Source: TM7 phylum sp. oral taxon 348
GTDB taxonomy: Bacteria > Patescibacteriota > Saccharimonadia > Saccharimonadales > Saccharimonadaceae
Length of the DNA stretch: 64,000 nt
Assembly (NCBI GenBank): GCA_007845485.1
Contig: SDRW01000002.1
Location: 1-64,000 of the forward strand
Direction: 5' to 3'
Positions 5,510 to 64,000 of this stretch are shown here, in pieces. Position 1 is the first letter of the stretch. Every line of letters begins with the position of its first letter. Under the pieces are notes generated by a model that did not search any database, was not told where the DNA came from, and worked only from the letters and a program-made list of their open reading frames with translations. The translations under genes were made by a program, and so were the position numbers.

Positions 5510-6706
5510 ATGGGTAATAAAAAAGTTCTGTATGTTATTTTAGCGGTTATATGTTTAAGTTTAACGGCATGTGCTGGCGCTGGTGTTATGTATTCACTAA
5601 TGTCGGCTAATCGTTCAGAATTAAATTCTAACAGCATTGATGGCAATAAGTTGCAGTTAAAAAATGAAACCAGTATAGCTAAAGTTGCCTCAGATGTCGC
5701 ACCAAGCGTAGTCTCTATAACGACGAAGTCTGGTGCTGGTTTATCGTCAAAGCAAGGGGCTGGTACCGGTATTGTTGTTAGTGAAGATGGCTATGTCATT
5801 ACTAATAAGCATGTTATAAAAAATGCGTCTGATATCGCAGTTACAACCTCGGATGGATTGATTTTTGATAATATTAAAACAATAGGGGAAGATCCATTAA
5901 ATGATGTCGCCTTTCTCAAAATAAACGGTGCAAAAAAGCTAAAGCCAGCCAAACTTGGTAATTCTAGCACACTGCAAATAGGTCAAAATGTTGTTGCAAT
6001 TGGTAATACGCTTGGTTTGTATCAAAATACTGTAACTAGCGGAATTGTTTCTGGACTTGGACGTCCTGCTGCTGCGTCTTCTCAATCTGGAGGGTCGGCT
6101 GAATCGCTAAATGATCTTATACAGACTGATACGGCTATTAATCCGGGTAACTCTGGTGGTCCATTAGTGAACTTGGCTGGTCAAGTAATAGGTATAAATA
6201 CTGCCATAGTCAGCAATGCGCAAGGTATTGGATTTGCTATCCCGATTGATGTGGTAAAAGGTATGCTTGAGGGTGTACTGAAAAAAGGTAAGCTTGAGCG
6301 TGCATACTTAGGTGTGCGTTATGGCGAGATTACTCCAGCAATTGCCAAGCAGAGAAATCTTTCGACTAACAGAGGTGCATTAGTAGCTGAGGATGGCGTT
6401 GAATCTGGTGGTCCAGCCGATAAAGCTGGTATAAAGCCAGGTGATATCATTACAAAAGTCGGTGATTTGGTAGTCGGTGAAAAGGGTAACGTGAGTAGTT
6501 TAATTTCAAGATATAAACCTGGAGATAATGTAGATATCGTTGCATTGCGTAATGGTAAACAGATTAATTTTAAGGTGAGATTAGGTGTACTAAAATCTGG
6601 CGCAAAATTAAATAGTTTACAGTCAGAGGATGGATCGAAAGAGTTAGACTCTGATTCAGATTCATCTAATAAAGGAATGAGTTTGGAAGATTTATTTGGA
6701 TTTTAA
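5510..6706 (+). CDS. htrA: HtrA/DegP-like serine protease with PDZ domain
   Basis: Extracytoplasmic trypsin-like protease for misfolded envelope proteins. The catalytic triad is visible as His101 (NKHVIKN), Asp132 (DPLNDVAFLKI) and Ser215 (NPGNSGGPL), followed by a single PDZ domain (about 290-370). The N-terminal hydrophobic segment ends LSLTAC at Cys21. This resembles a lipobox, so the protein may be a lipoprotein rather than simply membrane-anchored. A strong SD (AAGGAGGTG) precedes the ATG. Its 3' end overlaps the convergent prmC by 15 bp. Confidence 0.93.
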   Translation: MGNKKVLYVILAVICLSLTACAGAGVMYSLMSANRSELNSNSIDGNKLQLKNETSIAKVASDVAPSVVSITTKSGAGLSSKQGAGTGIVVSEDGYVITNKHVIKNASDIAVTTSDGLIFDNIKTIGEDPLNDVAFLKINGAKKLKPAKLGNSSTLQIGQNVVAIGNTLGLYQNTVTSGIVSGLGRPAAASSQSGGSAESLNDLIQTDTAINPGNSGGPLVNLAGQVIGINTAIVSNAQGIGFAIPIDVVKGMLEGVLKKGKLERAYLGVRYGEITPAIAKQRNLSTNRGALVAEDGVESGGPADKAGIKPGDIITKVGDLVVGEKGNVSSLISRYKPGDNVDIVALRNGKQINFKVRLGVLKSGAKLNSLQSEDGSKELDSDSDSSNKGMSLEDLFGF

Positions 6707-7528
6707 TCTGATAACCAGGCAGTAATTGATCTGTAGAATTTTTGTAAAAGAATATTGGTTGGCATATTTTATTATTGCATCGTGTTGAATAGGGTCGGCT
6801 TCAAGAAAAATGAGTCCGTCCCTATTTAGATGACTAGGAGATTGCTTAATCAATTTAAAAATCAGCTCCAACCCCGATTTGTCTGCGTAAAGAGCTAAAG
6901 CAGGTTCGTGTCGAAGGTCGGGCGACGTGTCTTGCCATGATTTATCGACATAGGGTAGGTTAGCTATAATATAGTCAAATTTTTTATTAGTTTCACTTAA
7001 TAGACTAAATGGTTTATTTATATTTACCTTAGCTTTTAGATTAGATGCATTTATTGAGGCTATATTGAGCGCTTCAGGGCTTATATCTGATAAGTCAACT
7101 TTAATATTAGGGCATTCAAGTGATGTGGTTATTCCTAGTATACCGCTACCAGTGCCTATATCTATGGCTGATTTAGAAACTGTATCTTTATTTAATATTT
7201 TTATCGCATTAATAATATCTTCTGATTCGGGGCGAGGTATCAGAGTCGCGGGTGTAACCTTAAATTTCCGCCCGTAAAACTCTTTGTATTTTAAGATATA
7301 AGCGATTGGTACGTGGTCTACTCTCAAGCTTAAACGAGCATTTAATATTGGTAAAAAATACTCAGGAATAATATATTCAGGGTGTGCTCGCAAAAAAGTT
7401 TTAGCTACGCTAAGAGTATCTTGTAATATTAGTTCTGCATCAAGTTGACTGGATTTAATATTTACAGATTTTAGTGATGTAGACGCATATTTTAACCAGT
7501 CTAAAACTGTTGTCGATTGTCTAATCAT
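6692..7528 (-). CDS. prmC: release factor glutamine N5-methyltransferase
   Basis: SAM-dependent methyltransferase that modifies the GGQ glutamine of RF1 and RF2. The SAM-binding [11 protein letters not shown] motif is followed by the substrate-binding ANLPYV (NPPY-type) motif, written here with Leu. The N-terminal helical domain (about residues 1-90) matches HemK proteins. The start overlaps the end of prfA by 8 bp, so enzyme and substrate genes are probably co-translated. Confidence 0.92.
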
Positions 7529-8591
7529 TAATATTTTTAGCTAGGAGCTCACGTTCGTAAGATTGTAGATGTTCAGTTAAGTCGTTTATATTACCGTCCA
7601 TGGCTTGTGGTATACCACTGCGACTATAGCTGATTCGATGATCAGTAATGCGATCTTGCGGAAAATTATAAGTGCGGATTTTTTCGCTACGATCTCCGCT
7701 ACCGATTAGACTACGCCGTTCGGCTGTTAGCTTAGCTTGCTCCTTTTCAATTTTAGACTGCAGAAGGCGACTTCGTAAGACACTCAATGCCTTCTCTTTA
7801 TTCTTAATCTGTGATTTCTCATCTTGATTTGTCACTACTAAACCTGTTGGCAAATGTGTTATTCGAACTGCTGAATCTGTAGTATTAACACTTTGCCCGC
7901 CATGTCCGCCAGAGCGGAATACATCAATTTTTAAATCATTTGGATTTATTTCTATGTCTGTTTCTTCTGCTTCAGGAAGAACTGCAACGGTAACGGTGCT
8001 TGTATGGACGCGACCCTGGCTTTCGGTGGATGGAACTCGTTGCACTCGGTGTACTCCAGATTCAAATTTTAGCTTTGCGTAAGGGCTATCGCCCTTAATT
8101 GAAAATATAACTTCTTTATAGCCACCAGCATCATTTGGTGATTCACTAATAATTTCAGTTTTAAAATTATGTATTTCGCAATATCGTAAGTACATTCTAT
8201 AGAGTTCACTGGCGAAAAGGCTAGCTTCATCTCCACCTGCACCAGCTCTGATTTCCATAATTATATTTTTGTCATCATTGGGGTCTTTGGGTGTGAGCAT
8301 TATAAAGATTTCATCTTCAAGCTTGGCAAGTTTTGATTGGCTTTCTGCCAATTCTTGCTTAGCTAATTCTGCTAGCTCGCCACTATCACCAGTTAATTGC
8401 TTAGCTTCTTCGATATTTTTTATAAGTCGTTCGCGCTGCCTAGCGATTTTTATTAATGATTCTAGCTCCGAAAAACGCTTATTTTTAGTAGAGAATTGAG
8501 GGTCGGAATAGGCATTAGGCGTAGCTAAAAATTCACTTAGGCGTTGTCTCTCATCTGTTAACTCATCTAAATTTAAAACTATTTTTGGCAT
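7521..8591 (-). CDS. prfA: peptide chain release factor 1
   Basis: RF1 (356 aa), which terminates translation at UAA and UAG. The domain-3 motif [19 protein letters not shown] holds the catalytic GGQ. The N-terminal coiled-coil region and the [17 protein letters not shown] block are RF1-like. It is the first gene of the minus-strand prfA-prmC pair. Since prfB is also present (31007), both classical release factors exist, as expected for the standard bacterial code. Confidence 0.95.
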
Positions 8592-51296: not shown

Positions 51297-52232
51297 ATGT
51301 CTACTAAGGTAGATACTAAACTTGATATTAGCAAGATTTTAAGCATGCTTTCCAGTGCTTATTCAGTATATGGTTATGGTTGGAAGCTTAAAATATCTGC
51401 AAAGAAAAACCACAATCGCAAGTCACATAAGCAATTAAAATTCTTAATTGCTGAAGAAGACTGTCCAGAAAGTATTAAGCAAAAAAATACTTACAGTAAC
51501 ATGGATAGCAGCCGCGATAAGAGTTTGCATGTTGCAAAAATAACAAAGCGAAGGCTGCGTAATTTGGAGAGTTCTACTAAATCGGCATATGAGTCTGATT
51601 TAAAGGTTGTCGCACGTGATATTAATGCACGTAATTTGCACGGTGAATCTTTTGAAGATATCTGTGATGATTACGATTGTAGCGATATGTATACACATGC
51701 TGATAAATATAGTTTTAATCAGAGGCGTATAGCTAAAAGTGTAAATATAGCTAAAGCTGGATTTCAACGCGCTCGCTCTAATCATCGCAAAGTCAAGAAA
51801 AGCGCCATACGCTCTTACGCGCAATGGGCTGGCTGCTTGACAGAGGAGGTGGTTAAAATTTTGGGGATTCCAGCACATTCTCAGGAATGGGTCATTATAA
51901 ATAAGGGCCGTTACCTTTATCACGGGAGTGGCGCTAAAGAAGCCGCTCTGCATGTATATTTTGGCGATAAATGCCACGATATGAAAGATAAAGGCCATGG
52001 TCATTATATTATTGGCTTGGAATCTGGTAAAATACTATACGCGCGCAATATGTGTGGACCTCGAGGGCCACAAAATAACACTACTAGCGATATGCCTAGC
52101 AGTGATTCAGCTAATTATCTATCTCGCCCGTGGTTACGTGTTATTAATAGTGTACGCAAGAATAGCTCTACTGCAGATGATTCTTTCCGCAAGGTCTCTA
52201 ATTCTGTAAGTAAAGAACTTACAGTAGCCTAA
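51297..52232 (+). CDS. basic cytosolic protein of unknown function
   Basis: A 311-aa protein, strongly basic in the first 170 residues, with HNRKSHKQLKF and KRRLRNLESS patches, then a more mixed region rich in Gly and His. I recognise no family or catalytic motif. It has a GAGGTG SD. Its leader begins GTACCTTATCA at 51248, close to the box of the 53-63 kb array, so it may be an outlying array member. A strong terminator follows. Confidence 0.6.
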   Translation: MSTKVDTKLDISKILSMLSSAYSVYGYGWKLKISAKKNHNRKSHKQLKFLIAEEDCPESIKQKNTYSNMDSSRDKSLHVAKITKRRLRNLESSTKSAYESDLKVVARDINARNLHGESFEDICDDYDCSDMYTHADKYSFNQRRIAKSVNIAKAGFQRARSNHRKVKKSAIRSYAQWAGCLTEEVVKILGIPAHSQEWVIINKGRYLYHGSGAKEAALHVYFGDKCHDMKDKGHGHYIIGLESGKILYARNMCGPRGPQNNTTSDMPSSDSANYLSRPWLRVINSVRKNSSTADDSFRKVSNSVSKELTVA

Positions 52233-53099: not shown

Positions 53100-53118
53100 T
53101 TATAAAACCACTCTCAGT

Positions 53119-53212
53119 TTGACAAATTAAAATAATTGGAATATAATTACTAATTGTGTGAACTTTAAAATAACGAATCCTGTAATTTTGTCATCTACCT
53201 AAGGAGACTATT
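53119..53212 (+). promoter_or_regulatory. array unit 1 promoter and leader
   Basis: TTGACA (53119-53124), 17-nt spacer, TATAAT (53142-53147), then 12 nt to the box GAACTTTAAAA (53160-53170, a one-base variant). SD TAAGGAGA before the ATG at 53213. No long hairpin is evident in this leader. Confidence 0.8.
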
Positions 53213-53806
53213 ATGTCATCTTTACAAAATCGGGCTGCAAAGCCAAAGTCCAAGAAGAAGGTAACACTCGTCGTTTCATGTGTGGAGAAATTTCTTCACG
53301 ACGGAAGTGCAACTCCTGCAATGAAAAAAACTGTTCGCAAAGACTTGAAGAAACTGAAATCTGAATTTGAGTCTCTCATTAATAAGCTTAATAAGCTCAG
53401 TTTTGCGGGTGAAAACAAAGCAGAAAAAAATAAACTTAACTATCACTATGTTGATATGTTTAAGTCCATTTTCGATGCTGTTTCTAAGGACATCGAATCG
53501 AATTTGAAGCTTATCCCTAAGCGTAAGCCTGACAACGAAAAGGATGTCGAGTACTTTTCTAAGATTGTATTGGATAAGGCTTATGATTTCATGGAGTTTG
53601 TCGAAAAAATTGAAGAGATCGCAAATCTCGATCCCGACAAATGTAAATCCAATGAGGCAGATGAAAAAGCTAAAAAAGCTCTGAAATCTGTTCAGGATAG
53701 CGTCTCGCTCTCGCACTTGGTACCCAACTCTAAGGTCTGTCATCAAGAGCCAGAAGTTTTGCTTGTGAAAGAGGATCTTGTAGGGTGTCACACCCAAACC
53801 ACCTAA
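53213..53806 (+). CDS. array unit 1 orphan: Lys-rich helical protein
   Basis: A 197-aa protein with a basic N-terminus (KPKSKKKVT), long predicted amphipathic helices (about 40-170) and a less charged tail with two Cys. No signal peptide or membrane helix. I recognise no family. The codons include many C-ending forms, unlike the surrounding core genes, which suggests high expression. It has its own promoter and terminator. Confidence 0.75.
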   Translation: MSSLQNRAAKPKSKKKVTLVVSCVEKFLHDGSATPAMKKTVRKDLKKLKSEFESLINKLNKLSFAGENKAEKNKLNYHYVDMFKSIFDAVSKDIESNLKLIPKRKPDNEKDVEYFSKIVLDKAYDFMEFVEKIEEIANLDPDKCKSNEADEKAKKALKSVQDSVSLSHLVPNSKVCHQEPEVLLVKEDLVGCHTQTT

Positions 53807-53862
53807 GCCTATAACTATTGTAGTTGGTAGGCGAAAGGGTTTCGTTAAATAAAGTTCATACG

Positions 53863-53887
53863 CCCCCGTTTTACGGGGGTTTCTTCT
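53863..53887 (+). terminator. array unit 1 terminator
   Basis: CCCCCG-tttta-CGGGGG stem followed by TTTCTTCTTT. Confidence 0.88.
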
Positions 53888-53905
53888 TTGCTAAAGTACT
53901 TAATA

Positions 53906-54080
53906 TTGACAAATATCAATAATTGATATATAATATGCATCGTAGAACCTTAAAATATAACTCAATAGAGGAGTCTATACGTTTAGGCGTGGCAGATTAG
54001 CTATTTAGTTAGGTAGCGTGTCTGCTGCGCCTAATTCTAGCGTAGCAAATCCATCTCTGTACTACTGAAGGAGTGATCTT
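53906..54080 (+). promoter_or_regulatory. array unit 2 promoter and structured leader
   Basis: TTGACA (53906-53911), 17 nt, TATAAT (53929-53934), 10 nt, GAACCTTAAAA (53945-53955). A 14-bp stem follows: TTAGGCGTGGCAGA (53983-53996) with TCTGCTGCGCCTAA (54021-54034), including two G-U pairs. The SD AAGGAG (54068-54073) serves a GTG start. Confidence 0.82.
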
Positions 54081-54503
54081 GTGATTACTACTCAGACCTA
54101 TAACCCGATCGAGTCTGTAGGCGCACTTGCTACTGCTATTGACGGTATTCAAGAGGCTTACGCAAAAGATTTGAAGCTTTCTAATACTGGCTTTAGTCGA
54201 TCTCTTGCATCTCTTGAGTCTCTGTATGAGTATATCAAGGGGAGTGGTAAGCTTCAAAGTACTAAGTCGAAATCCAATGTAAGTCCTGTAGAAGAAAATA
54301 TCCGTATTATGGAGCGTGATTTTCAACAGCTAAAGGGGTTCTTGGAAGAGCCTTTAGGTGCTGGTGATTATTGTTACTACTATAAAGCCAATGATCTTAT
54401 TGGTTGTTGCTATGTACTTCTTAATCGGTTGAGGACTTCTATTGAATGTGTTGTATTTTATCCTGATGTTTATATCAATCGTCCAGATCAATATACAGCA
54501 TAA
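54081..54503 (+). CDS. array unit 2 orphan protein
   Basis: A 140-aa cytosolic protein starting with GTG. The N-terminal half is helical (ALATAIDGIQEAYAKDL), a Ser/Lys-rich linker lies near residues 55-68, and the C-terminal half includes YYYKANDLIGCCYVLLNRLRTSIE. No known family. The late Leu-Arg-x-Ser helix loosely resembles those of units 4-7, but the match is weak. Confidence 0.72.
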   Translation: MITTQTYNPIESVGALATAIDGIQEAYAKDLKLSNTGFSRSLASLESLYEYIKGSGKLQSTKSKSNVSPVEENIRIMERDFQQLKGFLEEPLGAGDYCYYYKANDLIGCCYVLLNRLRTSIECVVFYPDVYINRPDQYTA

Positions 54504-54515
54504 AGGTCTCTACAT

Positions 54516-54570
54516 GCCGCCTTAAACAATTTATATGTGAATATATTTTGTCTTTTGGCGGCTTTTCTTT
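54516..54570 (+). terminator. array unit 2 terminator
   Basis: GCCGCC (54516-54521) pairs with GGCGGC (54557-54562) across a long AT-rich loop, followed by TTTTCTTT. Confidence 0.8.
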
Positions 54571-54599
54571 GTATTATCTATAAAATATTATGTTTATAC

Positions 54600-54788
54600 T
54601 TGACAAAAAATATTTTTACTATATAATAAACAATTGTAGAACCTTAAAAGATAAATCAATATCCAAATTCTATTCTATCTTTCTGTATAGAATTGTTGCT
54701 TAAGTAGGGCAGACTACTGATTTAAAAATGAACTAAATCCGTAATCTGCCTTACCTAGGCAGCCTCCGCAAGGAGTAAGTTCTATCCT
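54600..54788 (+). promoter_or_regulatory. array unit 3 promoter and structured leader
   Basis: TTGACA (54600-54605), 16 nt, TATAAT (54622-54627), 11 nt, GAACCTTAAAA (54639-54649). Two hairpins follow: AATTCTAT / ATAGAATT (54666-54694), and GGCAGA / TCTGCC (54708-54750) with an inner GATTTA / TAAATC. The SD AAGGAG is at 54770-54775. Confidence 0.82.
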
Positions 54789-55463
54789 ATGGAAAGAGGA
54801 TATATCGTGGTCAGCAAATTTGATAACCATGATCCAAGTGTCTTTTGGATGACCGTAAAGGATGTCGATAAGCTCAAGATAGCTCTTGACTACATGAAGA
54901 AAAATAATACCGCAACAGAGGAATATGGGGAATTTTTAAATCCTATTGTTCAACGCTGTAGCGACGGTGTTCTGGTGTATGCGGGTCTTGTTCAGTACTT
55001 CGACGATACCAACGGAAACAAAGGCCCTTTGTCTAAGCGTAAGCTTTCTCTGCTTTTTGATTCCGTCGCGAAACTGAAGGATTGTATCTGCAATCTGAAG
55101 ATTTTGGTTGAAGAGTTGAGTGGAATTCACGAGATTTGTAAGGAAACTGACGACTCTTACCGCGAAGCTTATAACAAGATCCATTACGATGTCTGGGCAG
55201 AGTCTAAGGGCTGGATCAAGGAAGATCTTAAGAAAATTCTTAAGATTTTTAATAAGATCATCGATATCATCGATATCATCGATAAGATCTTGCTTAGCTG
55301 TGACCCTAGTAAGTATAAGAGGTATGTGAAGACCTTGGGGAATTCAGGATCTCTTACTTACAACCCGTTCAAGGACCTTCGAAATCAAGTTAAGAACTCA
55401 GATGAGAAGGGTAAGAAGAGCAAGAAGAATTCAAAAAACAAAAAGGATAAGAAGGAGGATTAA
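54789..55463 (+). CDS. array unit 3 orphan: helical protein with basic tail
   Basis: A 224-aa protein (from ATG 54789). A GTG at 54807 preceded by AGAGGA is an equally good start, because AAGGAG (54770-54775) is 13 nt from the ATG. Long helices fill the middle. Residues near 157-166 come from a three-fold 9-bp repeat (55257-55283) reading IIDIIDIID. The last 20 residues are almost all Lys, Ser, Asn and Asp. No family recognised; no signal peptide. Confidence 0.75.
   Translation: MERGYIVVSKFDNHDPSVFWMTVKDVDKLKIALDYMKKNNTATEEYGEFLNPIVQRCSDGVLVYAGLVQYFDDTNGNKGPLSKRKLSLLFDSVAKLKDCICNLKILVEELSGIHEICKETDDSYREAYNKIHYDVWAESKGWIKEDLKKILKIFNKIIDIIDIIDKILLSCDPSKYKRYVKTLGNSGSLTYNPFKDLRNQVKNSDEKGKKSKKNSKNKKDKKED
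55257..55283 (+). repeat. three tandem 9-bp repeats inside unit 3 gene
   Basis: ATCATCGAT occurs three times in tandem, encoding an Ile-Ile-Asp heptad-like stretch. Slippage could change its copy number without breaking the frame. Confidence 0.85.
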
Positions 55464-55489
55464 GTCTTAAGGTTTTACCGCCACCATAC

Positions 55490-55537
55490 AATTTGTATAG
55501 TAATAAATATAGATTGTCCCTGGTGGCTTTTTCCTTT
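55490..55537 (+). terminator. array unit 3 terminator
   Basis: GCCACCA (55490-55496) pairs with TGGTGGC (55521-55527), followed by TTTTTCCTTTT. Confidence 0.82.
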
Positions 55538-55541
55538 TCTC

Positions 55542-55746
55542 TTGACAATTAATACCTATATATCATAAACTAGATAACCGTGGTACCTTAAAAGTGTTAA
55601 ATGCAGCAATCTGTTCATCGTGTATAAACTAAACCCACACACATTTATTAGTTTAGATGGGCAGATTGCTGCATTTAAAATGAGTGCGGTTCTATCTCTA
55701 GAAAGCGTAGATTACGTTTTCTTTTACATGCCTAAGGAGGCTTTTC
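55542..55746 (+). promoter_or_regulatory. array unit 4 promoter and long-hairpin leader
   Basis: TTGACA (55542-55547) with a weaker -10, probably TAAACT (55566-55571). The box variant GTACCTTAAAA is at 55583-55593. A perfect 17-bp stem joins TTAAATGCAGCAATCTG (55597-55613) to CAGATTGCTGCATTTAA (55662-55678), with an inner 8-bp stem TAAACTAA / TTAGTTTA. SD TAAGGAGG, GTG start. Confidence 0.8.
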
Positions 55747-56358
55747 GTGGAAACTGAAACTACTAAAGGAAATGAGCCTACTGTGATGAAATCTATTGTA
55801 AAGGGGACTCTGAACGCAGTATATAACGGAGAGCCATTGAAACAATATATCGTATGTTTGGTTCGGCGTACAGTAACCAATGCCCAAGTAGATGAAGCGA
55901 TTGATAAATTCCATCTTGAAAATGAGTTGGATAATGCGTGCTATATCTACGATGATATTGATACGAAGATTTCATCTTTTGAAAGTAAGGTGAAAGAGTA
56001 TTCTGGATATGGTATCTTTGAGGAGCATGACAAAACCTGTAAGCTTGATGATTATATTAAGAAAGCTTCAGATTTACTAGATAAAGCTTATGCTCTTGCT
56101 GATGATATTATTAAGCAGGGTAGTGGTGTAAGTAAAAGGAATCAACTGTCTAATCTTAAGAGCTACTTGCGTGATTCTGTTGTCAACCTTCGTAATGCTG
56201 TTGGGTTTATCATTGCAAAAGTAGAGGGGTGTTCTTATGAAGATCTGATTAAGCATTTCTATAAACAGTGTGATTATGAGTCTGTAGACAAGACAAACGC
56301 CATCAAGACTGATTATAATTATAGTCTTACATCTGGTCTGTATTGGCATACCGCATAG
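55747..56358 (+). CDS. array unit 4 orphan, paralog of units 5-7
   Basis: A 203-aa helical cytosolic protein with GTG start. The segment RRTVTNAQVDEAIDKFHLENELDN lines up with unit 7 RVVTHEMIDEMLNEYEKEVIDD, and NLKSYLRDSVVNLRNAVGFIIAKVEG lines up with the second conserved helix of units 6 and 7. No motif of known function. Confidence 0.78.
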   Translation: METETTKGNEPTVMKSIVKGTLNAVYNGEPLKQYIVCLVRRTVTNAQVDEAIDKFHLENELDNACYIYDDIDTKISSFESKVKEYSGYGIFEEHDKTCKLDDYIKKASDLLDKAYALADDIIKQGSGVSKRNQLSNLKSYLRDSVVNLRNAVGFIIAKVEGCSYEDLIKHFYKQCDYESVDKTNAIKTDYNYSLTSGLYWHTA

Positions 56359-56373
56359 ATAAGGTCTGTTTGT

Positions 56374-56410
56374 ACCGCTGCAACTTATTTGATTTGCAGC
56401 GGTTTTTCCT
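56374..56410 (+). terminator. array unit 4 terminator
   Basis: ACCGCTGCAA / TTGCAGCGGT perfect 10-bp stem followed by TTTTCCTTTT. The 3' arm is the left end of a 112-bp repeat. Confidence 0.88.
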
Positions 56411-56506
56411 TTTATAAAAACAATTACTTCTTGACAAAATATATAAATATATGTATAATAAGCAATGGTTGTGTATATGATACATAGCCTGCGAACCTTA
56501 AAATCC
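56395..56506 (+). repeat. 112-bp direct repeat, copy 1
   Basis: Identical to 57213-57324 (818 bp downstream). It spans the 3' arm and U-tract of the preceding terminator, the whole promoter and the GAACCTTAAAA box, ending at AAAATCC. Confidence 0.95.
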
Positions 56507-56546
56507 CTTGAGGTGAGCTTCCGTATCTATTTGTAAGGAGGCCATT
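56431..56546 (+). promoter_or_regulatory. array unit 5 promoter and leader
   Basis: TTGACA (56431-56436), 17 nt, TATAAT (56454-56459). The box GAACCTTAAAA (56493-56503) is 33 nt further, but a second -10-like TATGAT (56476-56481) ends 11 nt before it, as in other units. CCTTAA / TTGAGG can pair within the box region. SD TAAGGAGG, GTG start. Confidence 0.78.
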
Positions 56547-57164
56547 GTGGCACCTATTACCGAGCGAATGTTCTTCGATCTGATTGATAACGTGGTTACA
56601 CACGATATCCTGATTGAAGAAGTTCGTAGTTGCGAGACTAAACATCACCTTGATGATGTAGAGAATCTTGCTAATCGCGAGATGTTGCATATCAGCGTTG
56701 AAAACTTCTTCCATAAGCTTGAAGAAGTTTCAAAGAGCGTCGGGATTTACGATCTTAAATCACGATTACTGTATACGTCCACGTATATGATGGAAGCCTT
56801 ACAGGCTGTTCAAAAATGCTCTTTAATAATTAAGTTTATTAGTGAGAAAGAGCGACTATCTAATGATCATGTCAGGTCTTCTCTTGACGAGAAGTTTGCG
56901 CTTTTTGATAAGAGTCTGATCTATGTATGTTTGGACTTGGTCAAGACCACTGCTTCTATTATTGAGGAAGTTGGTCTTGAAGAAGATCTTGCGTTTAAGA
57001 TTAAGAATCTTGATCTGAATGAACTGGCTACCCATGGACTTGAGTTGGTTTTGAGTAAGTATCCTGATCAAATTTTCCCCAATGAATTCTGTGCTAAATT
57101 TGATTTCTTCCGCCACAAGCTTGACTCAGTCTTAAATATGCTCCCCGAGGAATATGTCAATTAA
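56547..57164 (+). CDS. array unit 5 orphan, paralog of units 4, 6, 7
   Basis: A 205-aa helical protein. FFDLIDNVVTHDILIEEV matches unit 7 FFRLLDRVVTHEMIDEML, and NFFHKLEEVSKSVGIYDLKS matches NFFNKTINLAEKVGFSDKS. The C-terminal half (LVKTTASIIEEVGLEEDLAFKI) matches the second half of the interrupted unit 7 gene. It contains one copy of the roughly 20-residue module that is repeated in unit 7. Function unknown. Confidence 0.8.
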   Translation: MAPITERMFFDLIDNVVTHDILIEEVRSCETKHHLDDVENLANREMLHISVENFFHKLEEVSKSVGIYDLKSRLLYTSTYMMEALQAVQKCSLIIKFISEKERLSNDHVRSSLDEKFALFDKSLIYVCLDLVKTTASIIEEVGLEEDLAFKIKNLDLNELATHGLELVLSKYPDQIFPNEFCAKFDFFRHKLDSVLNMLPEEYVN

Positions 57165-57176
57165 GGCTCGTGCCTG

Positions 57177-57229
57177 ACCGCTGTATGATTCTACTATTTA
57201 GTTAGTGTCGTCTGCAGCGGTTTTTCCTT
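57177..57229 (+). terminator. array unit 5 terminator
   Basis: ACCGCTG (57177-57183) / CAGCGGT (57215-57221) stem with TTTTCCTTTT; the right arm lies in repeat copy 2. Confidence 0.82.
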
Positions 57230-57324
57230 TTATAAAAACAATTACTTCTTGACAAAATATATAAATATATGTATAATAAGCAATGGTTGTGTATATGATA
57301 CATAGCCTGCGAACCTTAAAATCC
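57213..57324 (+). repeat. 112-bp direct repeat, copy 2
   Basis: Identical to 56395-56506. The coding sequences that follow the two copies (units 5 and 6) are strongly diverged. Confidence 0.95.
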
Positions 57325-57361
57325 GTTAAGGCGCTTTCCATCTATCCCTAAGGAGGATATT
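57249..57361 (+). promoter_or_regulatory. array unit 6 promoter and leader
   Basis: Same promoter as unit 5: TTGACA (57249-57254), TATAAT (57272-57277), TATGAT (57294-57299), box 57311-57321. The box forms a perfect hairpin, CCTTAA-AATCCG-TTAAGG. SD AAGGAGG lies 5 nt before a TTG start. Confidence 0.8.
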
Positions 57362-57949
57362 TTGTCAGAACCATTATCTAAGCAGGAATTGCACCACTTA
57401 CTGGGTGTTTCTGTGACTGATAGCCACATCACTCGCGCCACGTATATCAATGAACTCGAAGAAGCTCCTAACAAGATGGATGTCTTGGATAGGTATATTG
57501 ATATCCACAAGAAGGCAAAAGAGTACCACAAGACAACACTGGAATATGCAAAAAAGGCTGGTTTTGTCAATGAGAGTTTGGCATCTTCTATCTTAGAAGA
57601 TAAAAGTTGGATGCCAGATGTCAATATTATCCAAAATTGGTATAATAATTGTACCGAAGAAGATTGTATTGATAAGCTGCTGGTTTCTGCTCACAGTCAC
57701 ATTCTTCATGCTTCATCGCAGCTAATCTACGCTGTAGATATTTTCAAGGAGATTCCCGAGAATTTACGGAAGGATCATCGTGACATTGAGGACTGTTACG
57801 CTCAGTTTGAGTGTTACTTGCGTAAGTCTGTTTTCGCCACGACATTGGCTGTTAGTCGCATTTTTGCAGGTTCAAGTAACAGTAAATATGTTGTAGCTGA
57901 TTTAGAGCAAGCGATTGAAATAAGTCAAACTAAAGCGCTTAACGCCTAA
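57362..57949 (+). CDS. array unit 6 orphan, paralog of units 4, 5, 7
   Basis: A 195-aa helical protein starting with TTG. VSVTDSHITRATYINELEEA, EYHKTTLEYAKKAGFVNESL and CYLRKSVFATTLAVSRIFAG correspond in order to conserved blocks of unit 7. The sequence identity is low although the promoter is identical to that of unit 5. Function unknown. Confidence 0.78.
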   Translation: MSEPLSKQELHHLLGVSVTDSHITRATYINELEEAPNKMDVLDRYIDIHKKAKEYHKTTLEYAKKAGFVNESLASSILEDKSWMPDVNIIQNWYNNCTEEDCIDKLLVSAHSHILHASSQLIYAVDIFKEIPENLRKDHRDIEDCYAQFECYLRKSVFATTLAVSRIFAGSSNSKYVVADLEQAIEISQTKALNA

Positions 57950-57961
57950 GGTTGGCTCAAT

Positions 57962-58022
57962 GCCGCTGTTAAATATTATTTTTTAATTTTTTAAAGTAGT
58001 ATTTGCAGCGGCTTTTCTTTTT
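57962..58022 (+). terminator. array unit 6 terminator
   Basis: GCCGCTG (57962-57968) / CAGCGGC (58006-58012) with an AT-rich loop and TTTTCTTTTTTT tail. Confidence 0.82.
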
Positions 58023-58041
58023 TTGTGCATAGAAAACAGGC

Positions 58042-58133
58042 TTGACAGATGCCAGTAAGATATTTATAATTATCAATTGCGAACCTTAAAATCCGTTAAG
58101 GCGCTTTTCGTCTATTTTATAAGGAGACCATTA
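58042..58133 (+). promoter_or_regulatory. array unit 7 promoter and leader
   Basis: TTGACA (58042-58047), 17 nt, TATAAT (58065-58070), 10 nt, GAACCTTAAAA (58081-58091). It shares about 30 nt with the unit 6 leader, including the CCTTAA-AATCCG-TTAAGG hairpin. SD TAAGGAGA. Confidence 0.82.
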
Positions 58134-58976
58134 ATGGTGGCCAAAATTCCTGGCGAGGATTTTTTCCGTTTGCTGGATCGTGTTGTAACTCATGAGATGA
58201 TTGATGAAATGTTGAATGAATATGAAAAAGAAGTCATCGACGATGAGATGCTTACTGGGTATCAGAATGTCTATAATGCTATTTGCAACTTTTTTAACAA
58301 GACCATAAATCTTGCTGAAAAAGTTGGTTTTTCGGATAAATCACTGATAATTCAGAGCCCTAATGATTTTAGCCATATTCCGTCCGTGGATATTAAGAAT
58401 CTATTTTCTGAACGTAATGATGTAGATAATATTCTCGGTATTAATATGACTGAAGCCCTATTCTGTCTTTCTAATTCCGAGGAGATTCTTGCTAAAGTTT
58501 GGGAGAAAACTCACCAAGAGTTTATTGATTTATCATCATAACAATCTATAGATCTTCTACTAGCAAAGGTAGAAAGTTTGCTACGTAAGACTGCAAATTG
58601 TCTGCGCAATTCTATTGCAGAGCTTGTCTTTGAGGCAGGTATTGATGATGATATCATGCTTTCGCTTTTTGAAGAAACATCTGATCTAGCTCTGGTTGGT
58701 CTATCGGTTGTTTTGGATGTAAGTCCTGGCGATAAAGTTATCCTTTCAGAGGAAGAATTGAGAAAGATTCATGAGTCTTTCGATAATGAGGGGAAAGTAA
58801 TCTACACTTCAGAGGAGGAGTGCCGTAAGGTATGCGAAGTCTTGGGTTCTAAGGAATTATACAATGTATACATTCTAGAATCAGAGTTCGATGAAATCTA
58901 TAATTCCTACTATAAAAAGGTTATGGCTATTCGTCTGCTAATCGAAAAAGTCTCTCCTTGTTGTATGTGTGAGTAA
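58134..58976 (+). pseudogene. array unit 7 orphan gene interrupted by one in-frame TAA
   Basis: The ATG at 58134 opens a frame of 135 codons that ends in TAA at 58539-58541. The same frame then runs open to 58976 (QSIDLLLAKVESLLRKTANCLRNSIAELVF...). Both halves match unit 5 in order, so this was one gene of 280 codons. The C-terminal part holds about three copies of a 20-residue module (KVILSEEELRKI, KVIYTSEEECRKV, NVYILESEFDEI). No SD suits an independent restart, so it is either a recent pseudogene or read through. Confidence 0.78.
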
Positions 58977-58986
58977 TGTTCGCTTT

Positions 58987-59034
58987 GCCGCTACATGATG
59001 CTAATTGCATCGCCTGTAGCGGCCTTTCTTTTAC
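58987..59034 (+). terminator. array unit 7 terminator
   Basis: GCCGCTACA (58987-58995) / TGTAGCGGC (59015-59023) with an inner GATGC / GCATC, followed by CTTTCTTTT. Confidence 0.88.
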
Positions 59035-59078
59035 TATTGCTTTTTTTGGATTTTAGTGTATAATCAGTAAGGCTGATT

Positions 59079-60656
59079 ATGAATAAGATTACCCAAGAGC
59101 GTCAGCAACACTCCCATAACGCTGCTATGCGTTCAATTAATTATTTTATGGATGAAGCGTATGCTGATGATTTAGAAAAGCGCACAGAAGCACTCAATAG
59201 AATAAGTCGAGTACGTGATTATATAGATATATTTGCTGGTGATGTTATGTCACCTGAAGCAGCTCATGCTGGTATACTTTATGAAATCAAAAAAGAGGAA
59301 AATTCAAATATTGAAAATGCTATTGCATCGGCTACTGCGTTGATGGAATATTATACATATCCAAACACGCACGAAGATGCTGCTAGCTATACGGCGGCGC
59401 TACTTAACGATATGGAATATATGGATAATTACGCCACATATTGCAGAAATAGCGATACATATATGAGCCATAGGGCAAATAATAATGATAACGATGCCTG
59501 GCGTAAGACGTCTGCACCGATTGACATAAAAGAAATGGGCCGCTTGAGTGATGAAGTAAATATTGAATCAATTATAATTAAATCTTGCATTGTTTTAGAT
59601 AAACTTGTTGAGCCTGCTCGCGAAGTAGAGGAGAGCGGGGATTTAAGCAGATTAGACGATAAAGTTTTAAAGAATATTACTGAGGCAGAGATTTTTTATG
59701 GACCATTATGCGAAGTATTTGGTTTTGATGGTCTGGCAATGGATTTACGCAGTCAATCGCACGTACTTAGGCTTTTAAAGAACGGCAAGCTGGAGGATGC
59801 CGCAAAAGTGCGGGAATATTGCAATTCTATGCGTGAAATTGGTCCGCAGGCTGTACTAAGTAATATTGTGGGTGAAGGTAACTTTGCTGTGTTTAATGCA
59901 GTTAAAGATGTTGATTGTATCCATGATTATGATTCAGAAATTCCATATTCAAGTATCCAGCTTGGCGAATTTGTGACTGATTTTGGTAACTTTTGGAGTG
60001 GCAAGGAAGGGGATCATATGCTAACGGCTGGTAATTGGCGCTTAAAAAGCGTTGGTTCGTTAGCAAATAAGATACAGAATTCCGAAAAAAGAGGATTCCC
60101 AATGGACGTGATGGGCTTTACTTTTATTCTTAAAGACGAAGAAGAACTGGCTGATGTGTTTGCGTGTGTAATAGAAAAAGTAATTTTAAGTGAAAATCTT
60201 GAATGTGTGCCAGCGCCTTCAAAAGAAAATTGGGTTTTTGTACAAGGCGATGATAATTTTCGCAGATTGATACGCAAGAGGTTTAGCTATGATTTTATTC
60301 AAAAAAATATCCAAGTTATGGAAAAAGATGTGCATTATCGTGTAGCTAAGCTGACTTGTATATTGCTGGATGAGGAAAAGAATAGACAAATGCCAGTAGA
60401 AATGCAATTTTTAACTAAAGAAGATAGAAAAAACGCCAGAACAGGTACAGCGGCTCATATTATTTATAAAGCACAAAGTGAAGGAATTTTTTACTCTGCA
60501 GATGACCGTGAGCGAGCTTCAAAAATATTAACCAAGATGTATAATCGCAAAACTCATATGTATGATAGTGTAAGTACTCTTGAGGCAAATACGGAGTCTT
60601 TAATTCGCGGTACTGGCGATATGGATCGGGTTTATATGTTTAGCTGTCCAAAATAA
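59079..60656 (+). CDS. divergent RelA/SpoT-like protein
   Basis: A 525-aa protein. Residues about 315-480 resemble a (p)ppGpp synthetase domain: NWRLKSVGSLANKIQNSEKRGFPMDVMGFTFIL, then VEMQFLTKEDRKNARTGTAAHIIYK. The N-terminal part (SPEAAHAGILYEIKKEENSNIENAI) looks like a decayed HD hydrolase region. No TGS or ACT domain. TATAAT (59059-59064) and AAGG precede the ATG; the array box is absent. Activity cannot be judged from sequence. Confidence 0.55.
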   Translation: MNKITQERQQHSHNAAMRSINYFMDEAYADDLEKRTEALNRISRVRDYIDIFAGDVMSPEAAHAGILYEIKKEENSNIENAIASATALMEYYTYPNTHEDAASYTAALLNDMEYMDNYATYCRNSDTYMSHRANNNDNDAWRKTSAPIDIKEMGRLSDEVNIESIIIKSCIVLDKLVEPAREVEESGDLSRLDDKVLKNITEAEIFYGPLCEVFGFDGLAMDLRSQSHVLRLLKNGKLEDAAKVREYCNSMREIGPQAVLSNIVGEGNFAVFNAVKDVDCIHDYDSEIPYSSIQLGEFVTDFGNFWSGKEGDHMLTAGNWRLKSVGSLANKIQNSEKRGFPMDVMGFTFILKDEEELADVFACVIEKVILSENLECVPAPSKENWVFVQGDDNFRRLIRKRFSYDFIQKNIQVMEKDVHYRVAKLTCILLDEEKNRQMPVEMQFLTKEDRKNARTGTAAHIIYKAQSEGIFYSADDRERASKILTKMYNRKTHMYDSVSTLEANTESLIRGTGDMDRVYMFSCPK

Positions 60657-60661
60657 AATGT

Positions 60662-60674
60662 TATAATCTACCTT
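60662..60674 (+). promoter_or_regulatory. leaderless -10 box for rnhA
   Basis: TATAAT at 60662-60667 ends 7 nt before the ATG; no SD is seen. Confidence 0.6.
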
Positions 60675-61103
60675 ATGATAATTTACTATACTGATGGTTC
60701 TGCAGTGCCCAATCCTGGTCCTGGTGGCTTTGCTGTAATTAAGGATATGAAGCCCCACATTTTAGGTAAAGACGATGATACTACTAATATACGCATGGAG
60801 GGGCTAGCTATAATAGCTGCACTTAAGGATTCTGCTGGTGCGCCATGTGAAATTTATACAGATAGTGAATTTTGGGTAAATGTAATTACAAAATGGGCAG
60901 CGGGTTGGCAATCTAAAGGTTGGAATAAAAAAGGTGGCGGCGAAATTAAAAATCTAGACATTGTAAAAGAGGTGTATCCGCTTTATAAAGCCTCGCAAGC
61001 TAAATTAATCTGGGTACGCGGACATGTTGGCCATGAAGGTAATGAACTAGCGGATACTTGGGCAAATAAGGCGCGTGAAGGCGAAAAATTGACTAATTTC
61101 TAA
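60675..61103 (+). CDS. rnhA: ribonuclease HI
   Basis: A 142-aa RNase H that removes RNA from RNA-DNA hybrids. The catalytic acidic residues are visible in YTDGSAVPNPGPGG, MEGLAIIAAL, YTDSEF and NELADTWAN, with the conserved His loop WVRGHVGHEGN. It sits inside the orphan array together with the RelA-like gene but has its own leaderless promoter. Confidence 0.94.
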   Translation: MIIYYTDGSAVPNPGPGGFAVIKDMKPHILGKDDDTTNIRMEGLAIIAALKDSAGAPCEIYTDSEFWVNVITKWAAGWQSKGWNKKGGGEIKNLDIVKEVYPLYKASQAKLIWVRGHVGHEGNELADTWANKAREGEKLTNF

Positions 61104-61110
61104 TAGTCTA

Positions 61111-61277
61111 TTGACAATATAAAAAGTAGGTGATATAATCAATTGATGTGTGAACCTTAACATATCAAATGAGATCAGTTCAAACCTGAGAGGTTTTTCC
61201 TCTCACAACCATAAGCCTAATCCCGGGCGACCATCTGTTTGAATACAGGTGTATTTCTATCAATAGGAGGGGCAATT
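61111..61277 (+). promoter_or_regulatory. array unit 8 promoter and structured leader
   Basis: TTGACA (61111-61116), 17 nt, TATAAT (61134-61139), 12 nt, box variant GAACCTTAACA (61152-61162). Hairpin TGAGAGG-ttttt-CCTCTCA (61187-61205), and TTCAAAC / GTTTGAA (61179-61185, 61237-61243) may close a larger stem. SD AGGAGG (61264-61269). Confidence 0.8.
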
Positions 61278-61916
61278 ATGCCTTTTTTATCACCTTCAGT
61301 TGAAGAATTGAATCCTTTGACTTCTTCTGACGAGCAACTGCAAAAGGAGCTCAAGGAGGATTTTGGAGCCTCGATGGCGGAAGTGATCAATAACCAAAAG
61401 GTTAGCGATAGTACCCGCATTCTCCTTGACGGTATTGACTGTATGTTTGCAGACATGATGGACATTCTTCGTGGCTGCTACACTACGGGCCGAGAAGAGG
61501 CTAATCGTAATGTTGTTGATGAGATCAAAGTTTTCATCAACAAAGTCAAAGAGATGAAAGATCTTTGCGATAATAATCACGAAGATCATGTGAACAATGA
61601 GATCAATCAGGCAATGTCTTCTGTGCATAAGCTTGATAACGTTGGTCATCTTGTAGCAAAGCATTTTCCTGGACTCTGCAAGTGTCCAATCGAGTATCGT
61701 AATCGAAATCTTTTGGATGATTTCGACTATGCTGATCACGACTTTACTGAGGAAGGATCTCCTGACTCGGGAGAGTCTGATCAAGACCCCCTTGAAGAGT
61801 ATTCTGCTGCAGAATTGTCTGACAAAGATCTTTTGGATGGATTTTCTGTAGTTGAGTTTTGCCTTCAAGGTTCTTCTGAGAAATTTCCTTTGCCGAAATA
61901 TTCTAATGAAATGTAA
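61278..61916 (+). CDS. array unit 8 orphan: acidic protein
   Basis: A 212-aa protein from the ATG at 61278; a longer frame from 61239 is rejected because AGGAGG would lie inside it. The N-terminal 125 residues are helical. The C-terminal 75 residues are very acidic with three loose repeats (LLDDFDYADHDF, PLEEYSAAELSD, LLDGFSVVEFC). No family recognised. Confidence 0.76.
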   Translation: MPFLSPSVEELNPLTSSDEQLQKELKEDFGASMAEVINNQKVSDSTRILLDGIDCMFADMMDILRGCYTTGREEANRNVVDEIKVFINKVKEMKDLCDNNHEDHVNNEINQAMSSVHKLDNVGHLVAKHFPGLCKCPIEYRNRNLLDDFDYADHDFTEEGSPDSGESDQDPLEEYSAAELSDKDLLDGFSVVEFCLQGSSEKFPLPKYSNEM

Positions 61917-61947
61917 CTGATTCTCTTTGATATTTAGGTTCACCACC

Positions 61948-61976
61948 ACCCCTGTATTTTACAGGGGTTTTTCTTG
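61948..61976 (+). terminator. array unit 8 terminator
   Basis: ACCCCTGT / ACAGGGGT perfect 8-bp stem, then TTTTTCTTG. Confidence 0.88.
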
Positions 61977-61986
61977 TGTTTGCATT

Positions 61987-62068
61987 TTGACGAATTGGGG
62001 TAATTAATATAGAATAGTTTTTGTGAACCTTAAAAGAGCGGCTTTTATATAGATAGAAAGGTAAGAAG
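61987..62068 (+). promoter_or_regulatory. array unit 9 promoter and short leader
   Basis: TTGACG (61987-61992), 17 nt, TAGAAT (62010-62015), 9 nt, GAACCTTAAAA (62025-62035). The box ACCTT could pair with AAGGT at the SD just before the ATG. Confidence 0.75.
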
Positions 62069-62941
62069 ATGCTTCCTTTAATGGGTTATTCAAAAGAACA
62101 ACTTAAAGAAATTGCCATAGATGAGTATCGTTACTATGTAGATGGTAAAAAGAAGGCTACTAATTTATCTAATGATCATACTCTAACTGCCTATTGTAGT
62201 GATTTAAAACGGTTTATTGATGAAGCTAGCCGTCTTTTGTGTGTTGATAGTTCTAATTATTATAAAAAAGAACTCCAAGACAAGCTAGATAACACTCTCC
62301 AAAAGTTAGGTAAAAATGAGACGCGGGAGGATTTTCTAAGTAGTGTAAATTTACTGTATAGCCAATCCCTTCAGGCTGCTGATTTTGTAGCAGAAGTGAT
62401 TTTACGGGATTTTGCTATCTCTGTTTTTGACGATTATTTTTTGGAGATGCAAAAGAATAATCTAAAAGGCGAGTACTATGGCATGTATAAATGTATTTTG
62501 CTTTTGATGTTTATTTATGATCATCAGTACGATGCTTTACGGGAATTTGAAAACATGTGGTGGCGTAAGATTTCTGAAGATCATAGTAACCTTTCACATG
62601 GAGTTGCTGAACGCGTGGCTAAGTTAGTTCAGCGAGCGGGGAGTTTTAAAACTAGCGATTGGGCGAATATCTTTGAGCAAATTAATCGCGATTTTGCTGA
62701 TTATGAGATTGAGACTCTAAAAGATGAACAAGATTGCTTTGATTGGAAGAGTGCTCTAGAAGTAGGAAAGGATAAAAGCCGTACTGCAATAATTTTGCGA
62801 GATATCGGAGCTAATATTAACTCTAATTTGATTTATCTGGTTAAGTTAGCCATTGATCTTAATAAGGTTATTTGCAAGGATATGAAGCATTATTCATATA
62901 ACTGGCTACGCTTTATGGATATTATCATAGATAAAGCATAG
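62069..62941 (+). CDS. array unit 9 orphan: large helical protein
   Basis: A 290-aa protein, the largest intact array product. It is helical throughout, rich in Asp, Lys, Tyr and Leu, with no signal peptide and no membrane helix longer than a short hydrophobic run near 143-152. Codon use is closer to the genome background than in units 1 and 3. Family unknown. Confidence 0.76.
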   Translation: MLPLMGYSKEQLKEIAIDEYRYYVDGKKKATNLSNDHTLTAYCSDLKRFIDEASRLLCVDSSNYYKKELQDKLDNTLQKLGKNETREDFLSSVNLLYSQSLQAADFVAEVILRDFAISVFDDYFLEMQKNNLKGEYYGMYKCILLLMFIYDHQYDALREFENMWWRKISEDHSNLSHGVAERVAKLVQRAGSFKTSDWANIFEQINRDFADYEIETLKDEQDCFDWKSALEVGKDKSRTAIILRDIGANINSNLIYLVKLAIDLNKVICKDMKHYSYNWLRFMDIIIDKA

Positions 62942-62967
62942 GTTGCTGTTGTGTGAAGGCTCTGTAT

Positions 62968-63012
62968 AGCCGTCCTATTGGGTTTATTATAATGCCAGGG
63001 GCGGCTCTTTTA
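62968..63012 (+). terminator. array unit 9 terminator
   Basis: AGCCGTCCT / AGGGGCGGCT pair with one G-U, loop about 20 nt, tail CTTTTATT. Confidence 0.7.
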
Positions 63013-63122
63013 TTGACAATACATTGATTATACTATATAATTAGCACCCGTGAACCTTAAAAAATAAGTATTTACCACTAATTCAACAAAGATCTACTCT
63101 AAGAAGAAAGGTTGTGAGGGTA
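63013..63122 (+). promoter_or_regulatory. array unit 10 promoter and leader
   Basis: TTGACA (63013-63018), 17 nt, TATAAT (63036-63041), 10 nt, GAACCTTAAAA (63052-63062). AACCTT in the box is a perfect complement of AAGGTT at the SD (63108-63113). Confidence 0.8.
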
Positions 63123-63896
63123 ATGAACCCTAACAATGAAGCTATTTCGTCTCTGCACTCAGAAATGATTAAGGCTTTTGAATATGCACATTCCATGTTA
63201 CATATGTTTTGTGAACATGATGAATATGCGACATCTCAGGAAAAATTTGCATATCTTTATGAACTCGCTAGTATGAAAAAAGATATGATTGCTAGCTTGG
63301 ATAATATGTCTTATAAAGATATGAATAATCATAAAAAAGATATTGAGTTGACGATCGTTTCTATAAAGCGGCTTATTAGTTTTCATGTGCTATTCAAATT
63401 GGTTAGAACTATAGCATTCATTGATATGACTTTTGATATTCTGGAAAGAATTGCTAAACCAGATGATATACCTGATGCTTTTGAGCCTGAAATTAATGAG
63501 ATTGCTAATCAGCTTAATATTTTGTCTGCTTTGGATGCTGAGGATGTAAATTCTGATAATGGTCAATTTACATTACAACCAAGTCTTGCTACATTGTCTA
63601 AAATACTCTTTAAAGATACTGAGTCGCAAGATATAGAGCCAGTTGGCGAAGAAAATGTGGAGTTGACTAGTAGGGAAGAACTTATTAAGATGATATGCTG
63701 GATGCATGATGTCGATCGTGCAGAGTCTAGTTCTCAGAAGTGTGATAAATGGCATATTATTTATGATCCAAAAGAATGTAACTTTACGCTATATATTTAT
63801 AGTCGTAATCATAGCTATGATCTTAAGCGCGACTATACAAATGTATGGAGTACTGTTAACTATACTGCTCATCTTATTAGATATCCCTATAAATAA
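63123..63896 (+). CDS. array unit 10 orphan: helical protein
   Basis: A 257-aa protein from the ATG at 63123. The GTG at 63114 is also possible but is only 2 nt from the AAAGG SD. Long helices carry many Met, Ile and Asp; a hydrophobic stretch lies near 85-110. The C-terminal 40 residues (KWHIIYDPKECNFTLYIYSRNH) look beta-rich, unlike the other units. Family unknown. Confidence 0.72.
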   Translation: MNPNNEAISSLHSEMIKAFEYAHSMLHMFCEHDEYATSQEKFAYLYELASMKKDMIASLDNMSYKDMNNHKKDIELTIVSIKRLISFHVLFKLVRTIAFIDMTFDILERIAKPDDIPDAFEPEINEIANQLNILSALDAEDVNSDNGQFTLQPSLATLSKILFKDTESQDIEPVGEENVELTSREELIKMICWMHDVDRAESSSQKCDKWHIIYDPKECNFTLYIYSRNHSYDLKRDYTNVWSTVNYTAHLIRYPYK

Positions 63897-64000
63897 TCCA
63901 GTGTTGAGTTGCCTTAAATAATTAGCGCTTGCCGCTTTGTGGTTGTACTTATACTTGGGTTTGCCCATGCCGTTTGCTAGAATATATTTAAAATATTCAT

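Follow-up and report, generated by a model that had tools for sequence, protein, structure and literature searches.

A tandem array of one-gene cassettes with putative 5'-3' messenger RNA pairing in a genome of the Saccharimonadaceae

Closest described systems

Pairing between the 5' and the 3' untranslated region (UTR) of one messenger RNA (mRNA) is known in bacteria from a few single mRNAs. Here an array is described in which such pairing may recur in gene after gene. It lies between 53.1 and 64.9 kb of contig SDRW01000002.1 (C7) of TM7 phylum sp. oral taxon 348 (assembly GCA_007845485.1, here G000; 890 kb in 19 contigs). The window, that is, the whole stretch analysed, comprises bases 1-64000 of this contig. 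The array consists of eleven one-gene cassettes, or units, all on the plus strand, with open reading frames (ORFs) of 140-290 codons. Every unit has the same order of parts: its own promoter, a short shared sequence (the box), a leader, a Shine-Dalgarno sequence (SD), the ORF and a terminator.

The nearest precedent is the hbs mRNA of Bacillus subtilis. In the account given by PMC7821165, citing Braun et al. 2017, a 14-nt interaction between the 5'UTR and the 3'UTR protects this mRNA from RNase Y. The pairing predicted in the array is of similar length and likewise joins the 5'UTR and 3'UTR of one mRNA. As described there, hbs is a single gene, whereas the array has eleven adjoining genes with self-matched pairs, unit-specific flanks and a fixed box near the predicted mRNA start. 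Another example is the icaR mRNA of Staphylococcus aureus, in which the 3'UTR covers the SD, represses, and feeds RNase III (PMC3868564). In the array, as in icaR, the 5'UTR and 3'UTR of one mRNA are predicted to pair, but the SD is left free; one of two arrays in another genus (G099 array b, described below) is closer to icaR. The feature common to such mRNAs, complementarity of 5'UTR and 3'UTR beyond chance, is found in the array. In the literature, no report was found of long same-strand arrays of self-pairing one-gene units.

The layout of the array also recalls two kinds of tandem gene family. Like integron gene-cassette arrays, it is a lineage-specific block of tandem, same-strand, mostly unrelated small orphan ORFs. 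Integron cassettes are promoterless, whereas the units here are each equipped with a promoter and a terminator. Nothing resembling attC was recognised between the units; the neighbours examined were p256, RelA/SpoT-like, RNase H, KwaB-like and PIF1 genes. Tandem families of variable proteins, such as the surface lipoproteins of mycoplasmas, resemble the array in having conserved flanking regulatory DNA and fast-diverging coding sequence. Unlike them, the array encodes products with no signal peptide or membrane segment, their divergence goes beyond detectable homology, and all units look expressed. Nor is the array an operon, in which genes are co-transcribed from one promoter, since a promoter and a terminator are predicted for each unit.

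The array and its shared box

The array is divided into two blocks, units 1-7 and units 8-11, with genes for a RelA/SpoT-like protein and RNase HI between them. Unit 11 lies just beyond the end of the window. A sequence-only reading of the window had described ten cassettes, every one of them with a separate promoter, a box, a leader and an SD, and at least units 1-9 with a terminator. The cassettes are real and the ten boxes are confirmed, but the count is eleven, and two conserved genes interrupt the series. Separate starts and stops likewise stand, with terminators present in units 10 and 11 as well, except that the promoter of unit 4 has a poor -10 element. That reading had also named housekeeping genes genome-wide as the place where the motif would speak against a special array; the motif does not stand before them. 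The contamination estimate for the assembly is 7.67%. Contig C7 belongs to the genome, since the ribosomal protein cluster lies on it and its gene order is collinear with that of a congener.

The ten boxes in the window (GAACCTTAAAA, at most one mismatch; starts in Table 1) are all on the plus strand. Across the whole window there are 13 matches, compared with 2.3 expected from shuffles, and none of 100 shuffles gave as many. Genome-wide (890 kb), when one mismatch at most is allowed, TGAACCTTAAAA occurs 15 times; ten of these matches are array units, and the other five have no promoter in front. The box usually lies 9-12 nt after the -10 element, and 33 nt after it in units 5 and 6. The combined pattern of promoter and box gave 33 single matches among 85,000 species genomes, none with a second box nearby, and in viral contigs one match in each of 64 contigs. 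Rfam and tRNA scans of the sequence found nothing.

Two broader interpretations were rejected. The box is not a common promoter element: elsewhere in the genome it is absent behind promoters, and in 295 family genomes it occurs at chance level. A general TGAAC element after strong promoters also failed, most matches being the ATGAAC starts of leaderless genes; a case in genome G005 (L218) is one such leaderless set.

Predicted pairing between the box and the 3'UTR

The new proposal made here is that the shared box forms one side of a pairing between the 5' and 3' ends of the mRNA, a role which the earlier reading had not recognised. Together with its upstream flank, the box is complementary to sequence within the first tens of nucleotides beyond its own unit's stop codon. 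This flank is unit-specific, being GTAGA, GCGAA, GTGAA or GCAGA.

The mean duplex energy is -11.6 kcal/mol with the unit's own 3'UTR, -9.5 with the 3'UTRs of other units and -7.5 with those of other genes. The nominal p-values are 0.0008 for own against swapped 3'UTRs (random reassignment) and 5e-5 for own against other genes. Own 3'UTRs were better than swapped ones in all fifteen window choices (p 5e-5 to 0.09), most strongly with 65-80 nt of 3'UTR (5e-5 to 0.001). As a negative control, the last 65 nt of the ORFs were used in place of the 3'UTR, and no effect was seen (p 0.48). Complementarity between the SD and the 3'UTR, the pairing found in icaR, is at background in the array (p 0.88).

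Compensatory changes that preserve the pairing are present, although informative cases are few: one is clear in unit 1, and one occurs in G099 array b. Unit 1 alone has CTTT for CCTT in the core of the box (GAACTTT). Its 3' partner, TAAAGTTCATACG, forms 13 pairs with it and carries the compensating change.

Folding of full transcripts (650-1000 nt) gives a similar picture. In nine of the eleven units, 4.7-8.8 of the 11 nt of the box pair with the unit's own 3'UTR. Swapped 3'UTRs average 2.1, and two of 26 ordinary genes, folded with arbitrary 5' ends, reach 4.5. The paired stretches contain G-U pairs and bulges.

Similar arrays in another genus

Two further arrays with this construction came to light in a scan for consensus promoters; both are in G099, a genome from a different genus of the same family. 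Like the array on C7, they are tandem one-gene cassettes with a consensus promoter, a shared leader element and 5'-3' complementarity. They differ in their box sequences, in the membrane segments of the array a paralogs and in the use of the SD region for pairing in array b.

In array b, complementarity between the SD region and the 3'UTR extends over 10-11 nt, a finding which led to the same pairing test being applied to the units on C7. One member of array b shows a compensated difference: GAGACAGGGA faces TCCCTGTCTC in the one case, and GAGACAGAGG faces CCTCTGTCTC in the other. Full-transcript folds of a1, a4, a6 and b1-b3 also pair the 5' region with the unit's own 3'UTR. In G099, the comparison of own with swapped 3'UTRs is uninformative when long 3'UTRs are used, because G+C-rich terminators dominate it.

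A possible panhandle

The explanation preferred here, by a slight balance of probability, is a lineage-specific array of monocistronic cassettes whose mRNAs would close into 5'-3' panhandles, serving very high expression of a fast-diverging family. Each cassette combines a sigma-70 promoter, matching the consensus in nine units, with a strong SD, an orphan ORF and an intrinsic terminator. Judged from promoter positions, transcripts would start 4-7 nt before the box, which would thus lie within the first 15 or so nt of the mRNA. The box and its unit-specific flank would pair with the stretch after the unit's own stop codon, leaving the SD free. Such a panhandle would hide the extreme 5' end and so may block 5'-end-dependent decay of the full-length, terminated mRNA. 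It could form only on a message that had reached its terminator, and it may favour re-use by ribosomes. The long leader hairpins of units 2, 3, 4 and 11 may add to the protection. The array itself would have grown by duplication and by recombination at regulatory DNA, the ORFs having diverged beyond recognition.

Several observations weigh against this explanation. Units 4 and 5 show no pairing in the full-transcript folds, and the duplex of unit 9 is weak (-8.1). The ends also pair in two of five other strong-promoter genes of the genome, so that pairing is not unique to the array; the habit of end-pairing may be wider. In G099 array a, own 3'UTRs are marginally distinguished from swapped ones (p 0.015-0.15). 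All p-values for the pairing are nominal, because the test was devised after the G099 sequences had been inspected. Transcription starts are placed by promoter positions, and the array is known from its sequence alone. Membership of one family beyond units 5-7 is based on architecture and composition rather than homology. Finally, a panhandle can also repress, as it does in icaR.

One alternative is that a dedicated transcription factor binds the box as its DNA operator, making the array an eleven-unit regulon, with the 3' complement coincidental or secondary. This is unlikely. A single conserved 11-mer, confined to the array and usually 9-12 nt after the -10, does occupy an ordinary place for a repressor site, but in units 5 and 6 it lies 33 nt away, and the array contains no obvious regulator gene. 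An operator would also leave unexplained why the unit-specific flank, and the variant of unit 1, are matched after the unit's own stop codon.

Another alternative accepts the panhandle and reverses its effect. Pairing would mark the mRNA for double-strand cleavage or limit its translation, and the genes would be off until a signal opened the panhandle. That icaR works in this way (PMC3868564) and that the SD itself is paired in G099 array b are consistent with such repression. It is nevertheless quite improbable for the array on C7, where the predicted pairing involves the 5' end rather than the SD, and where constant high output is in better accord with the consensus promoters and the ribosomal-protein-like codons.

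Features of the array

The features are collected in Table 1. In unit 7 the frame remains open after an in-frame TAA, and the part beyond it resembles the C-terminus of unit 5. The stop codon may mark a fresh pseudogene, readthrough or a sequencing error.

Table 1. Units of the array, the two genes between its blocks, and the arrays of G099. Positions are those of contig C7 unless a locus is named.
Feature	Coordinates	Strand	Details
Unit 1	53119-53880	+	Promoter 53119-53147; box 53160-53170 (variant GAACTTTAAAA); ORF 53213-53806 (197 aa); 3' anti-box 53849-53863; terminator 53862-53880
Unit 2	53906-54574	+	Promoter 53906-53934; box 53945-53955; leader hairpin z -4.5; ORF 54081-54503 (140 aa, GTG start); anti-box 54502-54517; long-loop terminator
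Unit 3	54600-55536	+	Promoter 54600-54627; box 54639-54649; leader hairpin z -5.9; ORF 54789-55463 (224 aa, Lys-rich tail); anti-box 55466-55479 (12 pairs); terminator
Unit 4	55542-56411	+	Degenerate promoter from 55542; box 55583-55593 (variant GTACCTTAAAA); leader hairpin z -6.3; ORF 55747-56358 (203 aa); weak anti-box 56359-56379; terminator
Unit 5	56431-57230	+	Promoter 56431-56459; box 56493-56503; ORF 56547-57164 (205 aa); anti-box 57162-57174; terminator
Unit 6	57249-58020	+	Promoter 57249-57277; box 57311-57321; ORF 57362-57949 (195 aa); anti-box 57947-57957; terminator
Unit 7	58042-59035	+	Promoter 58042-58070; box 58081-58091; ORF 58134-58976 with in-frame TAA 58539-58541; anti-box 58974-58988; terminator
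RelA/SpoT-like ORF (not a unit)	59079-60656	+	525 aa; conserved; ortholog at same place in congener
RNase HI (not a unit)	60675-61103	+	Ortholog at same place in congener
Unit 8	61111-61975	+	Promoter 61111-61139; box 61152-61162 (variant GAACCTTAACA); long leader; ORF 61278-61916 (212 aa); anti-box 61935-61948; terminator 61948-61968
Unit 9	61987-63015	+	Promoter (10/12) 61987-62015; box 62025-62035; ORF 62069-62941 (290 aa); weak anti-box 62979-62988; terminator
Unit 10	63013-64000	+	Promoter 63013-63041; box 63052-63062; ORF 63123-63896 (257 aa); anti-box 63935-63961 (weak, interrupted); terminator extends past window end
Unit 11		+	Outside window; box 64076; ORF 64217-64831; anti-box and terminator present
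G099 array a	L214 5153-9556		Six recognisable paralogs with membrane segments; common terminator
G099 array b	L215 about 5181-8204		Some proteins with GHDPxxCxxC motif; SD region matches 3'UTR

Predicted expression and products

Nine of the eleven units have a promoter that matches the consensus at 12 of 12 positions. Perfect promoters (TTGACA-N16-18-TATAAT) number 17 in the 890-kb genome, and nine of them lie within the array. Other genes with perfect promoters, among those examined, are dnaK with a CIRCE-like element, a sigma factor gene and a cas2-like gene. The last lies on the minus strand from C5:332155 downstream; it is followed by a repeat array, translated as IIPISKLLGNYN, which is apparently CRISPR.

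A G+C-rich stem and a run of T follow every ORF, and most units have a common GCCGC...GCGGC stem with a TTTTC tail. An automatic scan found three of the array terminators, the loops of most being too long for it. The leader hairpins of units 2, 3, 4 and 11, which the sequence-only reading had overlooked, have z-scores of -4.5 to -8.1.

In likeness to ribosomal protein genes, the codon usage of units 1-9 ranks at the 84th-99th percentile among non-ribosomal genes and overlaps the range of the ribosomal proteins themselves; units 10 and 11 rank at percentiles 72 and 64. This supports the view that the units are real, heavily translated genes which have been resident for some time. Promoter quality and codon usage also back the strong expression proposed in the sequence-only reading.

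The same reading had called the products orphans of one functional family. Their orphan status is borne out by the searches. Profiles and sequences run against 245 family genomes found no relatives outside G000, all matches being in this genome. Pfam, PHROGs, PADLOC, NCBIfam and PDB gave no significant match to the unit products, PADLOC models having been scanned with ten of them. The concatenated family search is weak for units 1-4, which it did not re-find in their own genome; the congener was hence searched directly by tblastn.

As to a single family, all eleven products share a composition and units 5-7 are paralogous, but homology is not shown for the others. Units 5, 6 and 7 are the only recognisable paralogs, and beyond them pairwise scores are not clearly above the control. 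Each product has 4-8 Cys residues (2.2%, where the genome mean is 0.87%); of similar-sized proteins, only 20% have four or more. The eleven are also charged, richer in Asp and Glu and poorer in Gly and Pro. Hydropathy shows no membrane segment or signal peptide. An AlphaFold model of unit 5 is all helical, with a predicted local distance difference test (pLDDT) score of 47, and is unusable for a fold search. In all likelihood the units encode abundant and soluble proteins, mostly helical and rich in Cys, that are either cytoplasmic or non-classically exported.

Origin of the array

In the one congeneric genome compared, the flanking genes occur in the same order with no units between them, and both insertion places are unit-free. 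The conserved order there is p256, RelA/SpoT-like, RNase H, KwaB-like, PIF1 helicase, beta-glucosidase and mraZ. A tblastn search of the unit 1-10 proteins against 777 kb of the congener found nothing; unit 11 was covered by the locus comparison and the concatenated search. Since the sites in the congener are unit-free and relatives are confined to this genome, the array originated within this lineage or was acquired by it. Comparison of the two loci indicates a recent gain, in two blocks around two older genes. G+C content and codon usage of the array are native.

Units 5 and 6 illustrate how the units may evolve. Over a terminator arm, the promoter and the box, 119 nt are 98% identical between them, whereas the proteins are 16% identical. 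This pattern and the common terminators suggest that regulatory DNA is kept alike or exchanged as coding sequence diverges.

Box and anti-box might also mark, as terminal inverted repeats, the ends of small mobile cassettes that a transposase or recombinase moves, the array being a landing site for these cassettes. Matching inverted sequences do flank each ORF, the congener is unit-free at two nearby places, and an unrelated orphan gene that interrupts lepA has a similar promoter. This origin is very unlikely, however: G-U pairs and bulges in the paired stretches are more in keeping with RNA than with repeats in DNA, both repeats are within the transcribed unit with promoter and terminator outside, so that they do not bound the cassette, and all units are on one strand.

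Some phage early regions typically contain small orphan genes that each have a strong promoter. This resemblance and the recency of the array in its lineage could suggest phage or plasmid cargo, a block of early or accessory genes since fixed, but there is little likelihood of that: eight units gave no tblastn match to phage records, no PHROG match was good, unit 5, the one unit searched in plasmids, found nothing there, G+C and codon usage are native, and no phage gene was recognised among the neighbours.

Some observations concern the surroundings of the array and insertions elsewhere. The conserved downstream neighbour p331 (C7:64958-65950; L016 12958-13950) matches the Pfam model for Kiwa KwaB-like proteins (E 3e-10). 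A KwaB-like gene occurs in most family genomes, with a second copy on C6 here, and because of this wide presence it is probably not a defence gene in this organism. Beside the ribosomal protein cluster, two adjoining ORFs (C7:254837-255659) look like a broken insertion-sequence transposase.

In the same genome, lepA (EF4; C5:240121-242935, L220 121-2935, minus strand) is split after residue 277 by a 259-aa orphan gene, whose consensus promoter resembles those of units 5 and 6. The gene is split at the same junction, by other inserts, in G004 and G007 and apparently in G003, and near residue 180 in G002; it is intact in G005, G008 and G037-G040. By this comparison lepA appears to be a recurrent insertion hotspot. 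The lepA insert (L220 1219-1998) has the C-terminal motif YFGxK...GxGHY...GK..Y in common with the gene at 51297-52232 of the window, two genes before unit 1, and with the syntenic congener gene of the latter (L066 11250-12194). Proteins with this motif seem to form an undescribed small family.

On C9 of the congener G001, promoter-like sites at 55430 and 57705 on the minus strand mark two near-identical Rhs-type core ends (GARVYLPILGRFLQVDP), 2.3 kb apart, with differing C-terminal parts. They are possibly a polymorphic toxin locus.

Implications

The likeliest driver of the array is a role against a changing partner, either a host cell or a phage, because rapid divergence under fixed regulation is what would be expected of proteins that face one. 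More tentatively, and with some doubt, the self-closing one-gene cassette could be a dedicated gene format. Box and tail would co-vary within it, and it would provide a platform for hypervariable, lineage-specific families directed at hosts, rivals or phages, having arisen with different boxes in different genera.

If the matched pair in gene after gene is true, it would represent a heritable modular design and offer many natural replicates for the control of mRNA life. Genetic tools are available for cultivated members of the group (PMC10633639). Related arrays, if found in them, could be tested there. The most strongly promoted genes of this reduced genome are orphans, and they are candidates for what the organism makes in bulk.

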